This document shows positions 45,123 through 48,010 of a stretch of 64,000 nt of DNA, piece by piece. A program made the position numbers and the translations under genes. The stretch comes from Actinacidiphila glaucinigra. Its GTDB lineage: Bacteria > Actinomycetota > Actinomycetes > Streptomycetales > Streptomycetaceae. Location: the NCBI RefSeq assembly GCF_900188405.1, contig NZ_FZOF01000001.1, forward strand, positions 434,001 through 498,000, read 5' to 3'. Position 1 is the stretch's first letter, and the number at the start of each line of letters is the position of its first letter. The notes beneath the pieces are model-generated. The model searched no databases. It had not been told where the DNA came from and saw nothing but the letters and a program-made list of their open reading frames with translations.

Positions 45123-46187
45123 ATGAGCGTTGTGAACCCCGCCGGAGGCGCATCCGTGGCGGGCGGCTCCTGGCCCGACGTCCTGGGCGCGCTGCTGAAC
45201 GGCAAGGACCTGACGGCGGCCGAAGCGACGTGGGCGATGGACCGGATCATGAGCGGCGAGGCCTCGGACGCCCAGGTCGCCGGCTTCATGGTGGCCCTGC
45301 GGGCCAAGGGGGAGACGGTCGAGGAGGTCACCGGCCTCGTCGAGTCGATGTACGCGCACGCGGAGCCGCTGCACATCCCCGGCCCCGCCGTGGACATCGT
45401 CGGCACCGGCGGCGACCGGGCCAGGACCGTGAACATCTCCACGATGTCCGCCATCGTCATCGCCGGCACGGGCGCGAAGGTCGTCAAGCACGGCAACCGG
45501 GCGGCCAGCAGCGCCAGCGGTGCCTCCGACGTCCTGGAGAAGCTCGGCATCAACCTCGACCTGCCCGCGGGGCGGGTGGCGGAGGTCGCCGAGGAAACCG
45601 GGATCACCTTCTGCTTCGCCGCGAAGTTCCACCCCGCGATGCGGTTCGCCGCCCCGGCCCGCCGCGACCTGGGCATCCCGACCTCCTTCAACATCCTCGG
45701 CCCGCTGACCAACCCGGCCCGGGTGGGCGCCTCCGCCGTAGGGTGCTTCGACACCCGGATGGCCGGTCTGATCGCGGGCGTGCTGGCCCGCCGCGGCTCC
45801 TCCGCGCTGGTGTTCCGGGGCGACGACGGGCTGGACGAGCTCACGGTCACGGCCACCTCCCAGGTGTGGGTGGTGCGGGACGGGAAGGTCGAGCAGGAGT
45901 CCTTCGACCCGCGCGACGTCGGCATCGAACTGGTGCCGATCGAGGCGCTGCGGGGCGCGGACGCCGCGTACAACGCCGACGTCGCCCGCCGGCTGCTGGC
46001 CGGCGAGACCGGTCCGGTCCGTGACGCGGTGCTGCTCAACTCGGCGGCCGCGCTGGTGGCGCTGGAGGGCGCGGGCGGTCCGCTGACCGACCGGATCGCG
46101 GCCGGGATCGCCCGGGCGGCCGAGTCGGTCGACTCCGGGGCGGCCGCACGGACGCTCGAGCGATGGGCTGCGGCCACGCAGGCCTGA
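45123..46187 (+). CDS. trpD: Anthranilate phosphoribosyltransferase
   Basis: Second step of tryptophan synthesis: anthranilate plus PRPP. 354 residues from ATG 45123, with GGAG six bases upstream; ATG 45111 would overlap that site. Family marks are [45 protein letters not shown] and [11 protein letters not shown]. It stands alone, away from other trp genes, as usual in Streptomyces. TAGGCT at 45071-45076 may be the -10 box. Confidence 0.96.
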
Positions 46188-46308: not shown

Positions 46309-46336
46309 TTGCGGCGACGTGCCCGTGTGGCATGAT
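46309..46336 (+). promoter_or_regulatory. Candidate promoter of the SAM-IV-controlled transcript
   Basis: TTGCGG (46309-46314), 16 bases, CATGAT (46331-46336). Transcription would begin at about 46343, just ahead of the riboswitch. Confidence 0.45.
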
Positions 46337-46344
46337 GCTGCGCA

Positions 46345-46450
46345 GGTCACGAGTGACAGCGAAACGGCCCCGGCCCGCTGTCCGGCAACCCTCCTTCCGT
46401 GGCGGGGTGCCCCGGGTGATGACCAGGCCGCAGGCAGCGAGGTCTGCGGC
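46345..46450 (+). ncRNA. SAM-IV riboswitch
   Basis: Begins GGTCACGAGTGACAGCGAAA and contains CCGGCAACCCTCC and GGGGTGCCCCGGGTGATGACC, the conserved core pattern of SAM-IV. The outer stem GGTCAC/GTGATGACC closes at 46424, and a further GCCGCAG/CTGCGGC hairpin (46427-46450) fits the extra domain of this class. It binds S-adenosylmethionine and should lower expression of the downstream gene when methionine is plentiful. Confidence 0.9.
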
Positions 46451-46474
46451 AAGCGCGGTCAGAGGAGTTCCTCC

Positions 46475-46495
46475 ATGAGCAAGCGAATGCGCTAG
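46475..46495 (+). CDS. Six-codon leader ORF (MSKRMR)
   Basis: ATG AGC AAG CGA ATG CGC TAG, with AGGAG seven bases upstream, placed right after the riboswitch and 120 bases before the aminotransferase. The ribosome site can pair in GAGG-AGTT-CCTC, which could be the switched element. Too short for homology; its translation is inferred. Confidence 0.45.
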   Translation: MSKRMR

Positions 46496-46615
46496 GGCCT
46501 TTCCCGGCCCCCAGCCGCCTTTCCACCCCTCCCCGGGCGTCCGCCCGTCGTGACGAGGGCTGTTCCGTCATCACTGACGTTCCTTCACCCACGCCTGCTC
46601 CCAGGAGACTTCGCC

Positions 46616-48010
46616 ATGTCGCCGCGCCCTGCCCTGCCCTCGTCCGTCCACGCTCCGCTGCCCGTCCTGGGACGCGAGGTCCTCGTACCGCTCGTGACCG
46701 GGGGCGAGGTGGGCTACGCCGCCCTCGACTACGCGGCCAGCGCGCCCGCGCTGCAGCGGGTCTGGGACGACGTGGCGGCGTACGCGCCGTACTACGGCAG
46801 CGTCCACCGGGGGGCCGGCTACCTCTCGCAGCTGTCGACCGACCTGTTCGAGCAGAGCCGGGCCACGGTCGCGGAGTTCCTCGGCTGTCGCCCCGGCGAC
46901 CAGGTGGTCTTCACCCGTTCGACCACCGACTCGCTGAACCTGCTGGCCGCCGCCGTACCGGCCGGCACGAGCGTCTTCGTCTTCGAGACCGAGCACCACG
47001 CGTCCCTGCTGCCGTGGCGGGAGGCCGATGTGACCTACCTCGGCGCCCCCCGCACCCCGGCGGAGGCCGTGGCGACGCTGGATCGGGCCCTGGCCGCCCG
47101 GGCCGCGGACGGACCGGCGCTGGTCTGCGTGACCGGGGCGTCCAATGTGACCGGTGAGCTCTGGCCGGTGCGGGAACTGGCCGCGGCGGCCCACGCCCAC
47201 GGCGCCCGGATCGTGCTGGACGCGGCGCAGCTCGCCCCGCACCACCCGGTGGACATCGCGGAACTCGACGTGGACTGGGTGGCCTTCTCCGGGCACAAGC
47301 TGTACGCGCCCTTCGGCTCCGGCGTGCTCGCCGGCCGCGCCGACTGGCTGCGCGCGGCCGAGCCCTACCTGGCCGGCGGTGGCGCCTCCCGGCGGGTGGC
47401 CCGGAGCGCGGACGGCGGGGTGGACGTCGACTGGCACACCACGGCCGCCCGGCACGAGGCCGGCTCGCCCAACGTCATCGGCGCCTACGCGATCGCCTCG
47501 GCCTGCCGCGCGCTGACGGAGGCCGGGTTCGACCTGCTGGTCGAGCGGGAGCAGGCGCTGGTGGCCCGCGTGCGGGCCGGACTGGCCGAGGTGCCCGAGG
47601 TCAGGGTGCTCTCGCTGTTCGGCGACGACGCCCCCCGGGTCGGCGTCGTCTCCTTCGTCGTCGAGGGCTGGAACAGCTCCCACTTCGCGGCGGCGCTCTC
47701 CGCGGAGTACGGGATCGGCGTCCGCGACGGCCTCTTCTGCGCACACCCCCTGCTGCGCACCCTGCTCGGCGCGGCCGACCAGGAGCCGGGCGAGTGCGGT
47801 GCCCCCGAGGCCGCCCCGGGCGAGCTCCCGGATCCTTCCGCCGGGGGTGCCCCCACGCTCAACGCCATCCGGGTCTCCTTCGGCGCGGGCACCCCGGACG
47901 AGCACGTGGAGCGCTTCGTCGACGCGGTGCGGGAGCTGGTGTCGGACGGGGCCAAGTGGCGTTACCGCACCGAGGACGGCCGCTGCGTCCCGGACCGGGA
48001 CCAGGCCTGA
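46616..48010 (+). CDS. Class-V aminotransferase / cysteine desulfurase-like PLP enzyme under SAM-IV control
   Basis: 464 residues from ATG 46616, with AGGAG eight bases upstream. YAALDYAASAPALQRVWDDV, TRSTTDSLNLLAAAVP, ETEHHASLLPW, VLDAAQLAPHHPVDI and the PLP lysine Lys228 (FSGHKLYAPFGSG) define the fold; it is nearer SufS/CsdA and isopenicillin-N-epimerase relatives than IscS. A Gly/Pro-rich insertion lies near 405-425. No obvious persulfide cysteine motif was found. The riboswitch ties it to sulfur or methionine metabolism; the exact reaction is unknown. Confidence 0.88.
   Translation: MSPRPALPSSVHAPLPVLGREVLVPLVTGGEVGYAALDYAASAPALQRVWDDVAAYAPYYGSVHRGAGYLSQLSTDLFEQSRATVAEFLGCRPGDQVVFTRSTTDSLNLLAAAVPAGTSVFVFETEHHASLLPWREADVTYLGAPRTPAEAVATLDRALAARAADGPALVCVTGASNVTGELWPVRELAAAAHAHGARIVLDAAQLAPHHPVDIAELDVDWVAFSGHKLYAPFGSGVLAGRADWLRAAEPYLAGGGASRRVARSADGGVDVDWHTTAARHEAGSPNVIGAYAIASACRALTEAGFDLLVEREQALVARVRAGLAEVPEVRVLSLFGDDAPRVGVVSFVVEGWNSSHFAAALSAEYGIGVRDGLFCAHPLLRTLLGAADQEPGECGAPEAAPGELPDPSAGGAPTLNAIRVSFGAGTPDEHVERFVDAVRELVSDGAKWRYRTEDGRCVPDRDQA

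Follow-up and report, generated by a model that had tools for sequence, protein, structure and literature searches.

The SAM-IV riboswitch of the analysed window (the whole 64 kb stretch of DNA, from Actinacidiphila glaucinigra) is followed by a six-codon upstream open reading frame (uORF) that is real and conserved beyond chance. Comparison with related loci indicates that the riboswitch very probably gates translation initiation on this mini-ORF. The SAM sensor of Streptomyces and its relatives appears, on the same comparative grounds, to switch on the translation of the mini-gene, and the enzyme gene only through it. A first-pass annotation had proposed that the riboswitch acts on the tiny ORF and only indirectly on the gene, and this proposal gains comparative support from putative losses of the ORF, in which the gene start replaces it.

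The hexapeptide ORF and its distribution

SAM-IV (RF00634) is the sole Rfam match above the gathering score in the window, reaching 109.9 bits where 38 are required, and it is full-length (model positions 1–116). The first-pass reading of a SAM-IV core followed by MSKRMR with a strong AGGAG, and of an aminotransferase about 120 bases further on, was borne out (Table 1), the ATG of the enzyme lying 120 nt 3′ of the hexapeptide stop. The pseudoknot strands co-vary in sister loci (GTCCG with CGGAC, in a by-eye reading of the sister sequences). A scan for the sigma-70 consensus gave no promoter match; a loose promoter motif 5′ of the aptamer was counted, without a control, in 31 of 44 survey uORF loci. 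A promoter-like TTGCG/TGGCAnanT pair directly 5′ of the aptamer is also recurrent in relatives, again without a control. The ORF on the 5′ side of the riboswitch, which presumably resembles trpD, ends at 46187.

Table 1. Features of the SAM-IV locus in window coordinates
Feature	Position	Strand	Details
Likely promoter	46309–46336	+	TTGCGG 46309–46314, 16 nt, CATGAT 46331–46336; sequence reading
SAM-IV aptamer	46345–46461	+	P1 GGTC 46345–46348 with GACC 46421–46424
SAM-IV pseudoknot strands	46397–46401 and 46454–46458	+	CCGTG with CGCGG; by eye
Shine-Dalgarno (SD) GAGGAG	46462–46467	+	within hairpin GAGG-AGTT-CCTC 46462–46473
Hexapeptide ORF MSKRMR	46475–46495	+	ATGAGCAAGCGAATGCGCTAG; ATG AGC AAG CGA ATG CGC TAG
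GC hairpin GGGCC-TTTCCC-GGCCC	46495–46510	+	starts at the last base of the stop codon; −10.1 kcal/mol
Untranslated leader	46496–46603	+	C-rich and G-poor (52 C, 24 G), Rho-site-like
Class V aminotransferase / SufS-like cysteine desulfurase homologue	46616–48010	+	own SD AGGAG 46603–46607

The enzyme matches PF00266 (E 8.7e-74) and the SufS model TIGR01979 with an E value of 4.5e-74, yet its 249.7 bits are below the cut-off of that model (475.1). By sequence, its closest solved structures in the PDB are SufS-type cysteine desulfurases.

The exact 20-mer TGAGCAAGCGAATGCGnTAG occurs as a single copy in this genome and is shared by 189 of the 394 family genomes, once per genome among the matches listed, from which the reversed 20-mer is absent. 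The relaxed pattern TGnnnMAGCGAATGnGnTAG gave one match each in 132 of 150 Streptomyces genomes (genus g9), leaving 18 without it, and its reversed control matched none of the 150. An MSKRMR-like ORF, for which the first-pass annotation had advised a search, is therefore strongly conserved. When SAM-IV loci were read regardless of the ORF, the variants MRKRMR, VNQRMR, VSQRMR, MIKRMR, VTKRMR, VKQRMR, MKRMR, MSKRML and LSKRM were found besides SKRMR, so that the consensus is approximately [M/V/L]-x-[K/Q]-R-M-R. The start is ATG, GTG or TTG, codon 2 is variable, codon 3 is AAG or CAG, and the last codon varies freely in its third position; the stops of 175 distinct loci are TAG (168), TGA (5) and TAA (2). 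Relatives differ widely in the distance between aptamer and ORF, implying that the conserved unit is the ORF with its SD and not a fixed spacing. An aptamer core was missed by regular expression at 18 of 164 loci of the 20-mer, which by eye are contig-end cuts or aptamer variants, except for L049. This Paenibacillus locus is an evident chance match.

Most of the 175 distinct loci were found with a pattern that already fixes CGA, and codon statements are therefore based on the 44 survey loci and on the relaxed and synonymous counts in Streptomyces. The survey defined a uORF by an SD-preceded ATG, GTG or TTG start and the residues RM within at most 9 codons, which places the longer ORF of L232 outside the 44. 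A gapped pattern run across the class matched in 17 of 394 genomes, by eye mostly by chance; the real matches are L262 (G643, the place of survey locus L292) and L265 (G134, the place of L233).

SAM-IV is present in 109 of 150 relatives and in 262 of 394 class members. An xRM uORF was found at 44 of the 156 SAM-IV loci read, which comprise best-scoring and hand-picked loci and are no random draw, and a homologue of the window aminotransferase lies downstream at 106 of the 156. Where SAM-IV precedes this gene, the uORF is present at 37 of 61 loci within the family of the window and at none of 45 outside it. The first-pass view that this is not a usual arrangement is correct for SAM-IV generally, judged by the loci read with this gene outside the family, whereas in Streptomyces it is the rule. 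At 161 of the 175 distinct loci with a uORF, this gene stands downstream; of the remaining 14, eight have less than 190 nt of sequence left, and the six others, which are distant, precede a different gene.

A tree of 69 aminotransferases requires four changes of the uORF label (quick method; the starred branches force three). In this labelling, "direct" also covers three g5 genomes whose gene start is distant and preceded by a two-codon ORF, and outside the family it signifies only that no xRM uORF was found. Most simply, this distribution would correspond to one gain and three losses; the arrangement has apparently been kept for long in evolution and lost again several times. In the three g5 genomes (L205, L211, L215), GGGGAGCATGTGATGGCGTGA replaces the hexapeptide about 60 nt past the aptamer. 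It is a two-codon ORF (AUG GCG UGA) with good SD spacing, identical in all three, and the aminotransferase starts 233–259 nt past the aptamer.

The putative losses suggest a change of address at the start codon. Counted from the aptamer end, the aminotransferase starts at +13 in one group (G017, G021, G024), at +44 to +46 in a second (G004, G016, G023, G027, G033) and at +47 to +53 in the third (genus g14), while the uORF of relatives starts at +11 to +17 in the short type of expression platform and at +35 to +58 in the long type. The gene start in the putative losses thus approximates the position of the uORF start in the sisters, and the riboswitch seems to address whichever start codon follows. 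This swap of start-codon position is the strongest reason for assigning the hexapeptide ORF of the window to SAM-IV.

The same swap bears on two other explanations. If translation of the uORF blocked the gene, as is known for the metE uORF of Mycobacterium tuberculosis with a B12 riboswitch (in the available part of PMC11260477), the effect of the riboswitch would have to invert at each gain or loss of the uORF, because in the putative losses that start position is used by the gene itself; a repressing uORF is accordingly considered unlikely. If SAM represses the gene with and without the uORF, the uORF should act positively. It is very improbable that the conserved 20-mer functions without being translated, as a protein, RNase or sRNA site in the RNA that merely resembles an ORF. 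The fixation of CGAATG at the nucleotide level, beyond the needs of the peptide, would suit such a site. Against it, the 20-mer occupies the place of a true start codon in the putative losses. At the survey loci, moreover, the last codon is unconstrained in its third position and TAG, TGA and TAA all serve as the stop; the start varies among ATG, GTG and TTG behind an SD, two features that belong to the recognition criteria.

Pairing of the ribosome site

Two types of expression platform were distinguished among the relatives, 129 long and 20 short, and the window has the short form. Its SD sits three bases past the pseudoknot strand, inside a small hairpin of its own. That a GAGG-AGTT-CCTC hairpin can form over the ribosome site, as the first-pass annotation held, agrees with the prediction for the window (−4.7 kcal/mol; SD pairing probability of 0.88 in the stretch after the aptamer), but the hairpin is not conserved: the mean SD pairing of the short-type sisters is 0.67 against 0.66 in shuffles (n = 20), a weak test as few bases are left to shuffle, and in several of them no hairpin folds at the SD. 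The whole leader of the window is not unusually stable (z of −0.66 and −1.11 in two runs).

In the long-type leaders, the mean SD pairing is 0.88 against 0.73 in shuffles (n = 129), which permute only the bases 5′ of the SD. Seven consecutive nucleotides perfectly complementary to the P1 3′ strand occur in 109 of 123 long-type leaders versus 4% of shuffles, and in 105 of 123 minimum-energy folds of the sequence after the pseudoknot the SD region is paired with the upstream platform, a count without a control. We read these leaders as having two predicted, mutually exclusive states, a SAM-free one in which the P1 strand is captured downstream and the SD would be open, and a SAM-bound one in which the SD would lie in a hairpin.

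RNAalifold on 75 long-type leaders favours a competing hairpin, GGACCCC/GGGGTCC, with a covariation term of only −0.36 and changes on both sides in 3 of 14 pairs. Because of this preference, the switch model rests on the pairing tests of the individual sequences. Two-state folding, in which free folding was compared with folding under forced P1 and a blocked pseudoknot strand (pseudoknots themselves being outside the folding model), gave differences of both signs among the leaders and no difference for the window (0.28 versus 0.29). The states were not consistently separated, and this calculation was therefore dropped as support. Ligand-dependent sequestration of the SD may take place: the long-type relatives have competing pairings, and two-state folding is ambiguous and silent for the window; given this ambiguity and the RNAalifold result, the direction of switching is a presumed one.

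The fixed CGA codon, the stop-codon hairpin and a proposed mechanism

The arginine codon preceding the inner methionine is CGA in all 44 distinct survey loci, although its share of the CGN codons is 3.7% in the window (56 ORFs called mechanically) and 1.2% in the aminotransferase genes. Synonymous, non-CGA forms of the pattern gave 15 matches in 150 Streptomyces genomes, representing three sequences and fewer than their own reversed control; 13 of these 15 genomes carry the CGA form elsewhere, and the other two share their sequence with such genomes. The fixation of CGA is unexplained by the peptide alone. It lends itself to a tentative reading as a dual sensor, where the riboswitch would decide on uORF translation and CGA-AUG would stall or slow the ribosome in a shortage of Met-tRNA or of the Arg-tRNA that reads CGA, in the manner of a classical attenuator. 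The fixation itself, the rarity of synonymous forms and the recurrence of CGA-ATG in short ORFs after SAM-IV in other families (six counted loci in five families, and L232 in a sixth) speak for such a sensor. Against it, there is a single inner methionine codon in the six, and no run of regulatory codons as in amino-acid leader-peptide attenuators; the last arginine codon is also rich in CGA (22 of 44, next to 14 CGC, 4 CGT and four others), which is compatible with plain slowing.

The loci of the other actinobacterial families are L003, L004, L232, L233, L285, L292 and L324. Their peptides are MCIRRMCCR, VSCQRMPRR, VNHHRMRR, MTCRMPF, VTCRMRR and MCCCRMN, with the longer ORF of L232 beginning MCRCRMTG, and the protein encoded behind each is one that we take to be of the O-acetylhomoserine sulfhydrylase type. 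At L281, L284, L293 and L303, SAM-IV is followed by short ORFs that are rich in Cys codons or end in Cys (for example MARSPMRCCCQ, MRASLHPLTRCCCR) and have no CGA-ATG; these look like cysteine attenuation under a SAM riboswitch. Among CRRMC-type leader peptides (seven matches and seven earlier loci inspected) no convincing leader was found. A link to metL was dropped, as the peptide form CMCRRMC, published for S. lividans metL, is absent from 81 Streptomyces genomes. A second SAM-IV riboswitch of the A. glaucinigra genome (L002, C47:195030-195133) precedes a 28-codon ORF, MPRARALLLTRRLHIDFLRVCSSSGAAG, which resembles the leader-peptide models NF042936 and NF042934 (NCBIfam) with scores below their cut-offs, and by eye similar ORFs lie downstream of SAM-IV in L183, L186, L194 and L209. 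Back-to-back SAM-IV pairs on opposite strands within about 450 bases, apparently in divergent leaders, were observed at L220, G072:C169, G021:C1:6395522-6395926, G062:C1:1096541-1096906 and G149:C16.

A stem of at least 4 bp that begins at most 3 nt from the uORF stop is found in 163 of 171 distinct sequences (49% of shuffles), and one of at least 5 bp in 113 (20% of shuffles); in 163 of the 171, such a stem opens with the final base of the stop codon. Pair 5 of this stem exchanges (CG 57, GC 41, TA 7, TG 8), and the 30-nt fold at the stop codon has a mean z of −0.98. A ribosome ending at the UAG would cover this hairpin with its footprint. Further on, C exceeds G in the leaders of 156 of 156 loci and is at least 1.5 times G in 127, versus 84 and 10 of 206 control stretches, which are 100 nt long, lie 5′ of other ORFs and come from the window and L033–L112 only, while the uORF leaders vary in length. 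The C/G ratio of the window leader is 2.17. This bias fits Rho-dependent termination. The gap between uORF and gene measures 44–286 nt (median 116, 157 loci), which, together with the gene's own SD, argues against termination-reinitiation.

A platform that is an ordinary intrinsic terminator, with the ORF incidental, could account for the GC hairpin 3′ of the stop. It would also accommodate the premature transcription unit of S. clavuligerus at the SAM-IV leader of a class V aminotransferase, reported in the accessible text of PMC8269248 to be among the most extreme drops into a gene; the likeness of that leader to the window's lies in gene kind and riboswitch class only. The stem, however, is mostly of 4–6 bp, the U tract is not conserved (T runs of at least 5 within 90 nt of the stop in just 19 of 171), a scan for U-tract terminators in the window found none, and the conservation of the peptide would be left unexplained. 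An intrinsic terminator is thus rather improbable.

The explanation that we favour, with confidence only a little above even, is that SAM-IV is an OFF switch which gates initiation at the six-codon uORF, and that a ribosome on the uORF licenses transcription downstream. With SAM bound, P1 and the downstream pseudoknot would form and the ribosome site of the uORF would become inaccessible. In the window, the neighbouring pseudoknot and the small GAGG/CCTC hairpin would mask it; in most relatives, a larger hairpin would do so. This would leave the uORF untranslated, with the stop-codon GC hairpin and the C-rich leader naked, and the naked leader would lead to an early end of transcription, most likely through Rho or pausing. 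Without SAM, the site would open, a ribosome would occupy the uORF and its footprint would cover the stop-codon hairpin, so that RNA polymerase could continue and the aminotransferase be translated from its own SD. Ribosomes on the uORF would presumably prevent premature transcription termination in this way, a reading in keeping with the premature transcription reported for S. clavuligerus.

Comparison of the loci supports several likely parts of this mechanism, namely the conservation of the ORF and its place under the riboswitch, the competing pairings of the long type, the hairpin and the C bias; the response to SAM, the direction of switching, translation itself and the role of Rho are parts that we infer. 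A possible though doubtful extension is an AND gate, in which SAM-IV would load the ribosome and CGA-AUG, perhaps in response to Met-tRNA, would park it over the stop-codon hairpin for polymerase to pass.

A riboswitch class known mainly by its aptamer may therefore act via a mini-ORF in a bacterial genus that is among the best studied, an action that reporter fusions joining the aptamer directly to the gene would miss. The natural gains and losses of the uORF constitute ready-made controls, and the fixed rare codon pair allows a clear and cheap test of a six-codon ORF as a timing or tRNA-sensing device.

Comparison with known systems

In the literature on SAM-IV with a uORF or on Streptomyces leader peptides, as far as it was covered (in part, and excluding the original SAM-IV paper), the mini-ORF is not described. 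We found no description of a SAM-IV riboswitch in this role, of the six-codon ORF, of a hairpin that starts in its stop codon or of the fixed CGA-AUG pair. The available part of the S. lividans reannotation (PMC8079986) places SAM-IV before a cysteine desulfurase gene and lists eight leader peptides, none of which is the hexapeptide. The actinobacterial leader-peptide attenuators, including Cys-rich ones (PMC4633059, PMC8079986, as partly available; NF042934, NF042936), likewise have a short ORF 5′ of sulfur or amino-acid genes; the hexapeptide differs in having no run of the regulatory residue and in its initiation under a riboswitch.

The SAM-II riboswitch of Sinorhizobium meliloti metA, in the portion of PMC9373788 at hand, shares with the present locus a SAM riboswitch and an SD that acts at a distance, its first AUG and its true start being separated by a terminator. 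It differs in that its AUGs are in frame, translation proceeds from 74 nt downstream, and there is no separate conserved mini-ORF. The B12 riboswitches of M. tuberculosis metE and ppe2 similarly combine a riboswitch, a uORF (there translated) and an effect on the downstream gene. PPE2 translation is reported, in the sections seen of PMC11260477, to occur mainly by termination-reinitiation, whereas the SAM-IV loci have a gap of 44–286 nt and another class of ligand.

The closest known system is the pe20 Mbox of M. tuberculosis, with its uORF rv1805A and Rho-dependent termination (PMC12810186, from the part available, as for the details below). In both, a translational platform is combined with a conserved small uORF in first place, anti-SD pairing and premature termination, the last two presumed here. 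As in that type, the first ORF under the aptamer is a conserved uORF, judged here by conservation and position, and its translation is predicted. The Mbox belongs to another aptamer class, its uORF has a homologue elsewhere in the genome and lacks the six-codon length and the fixed codon pair, and its main termination site was mapped 5′ of the uORF. The riboswitch-gated uORF is thus a known class of mechanism, reported from M. tuberculosis.
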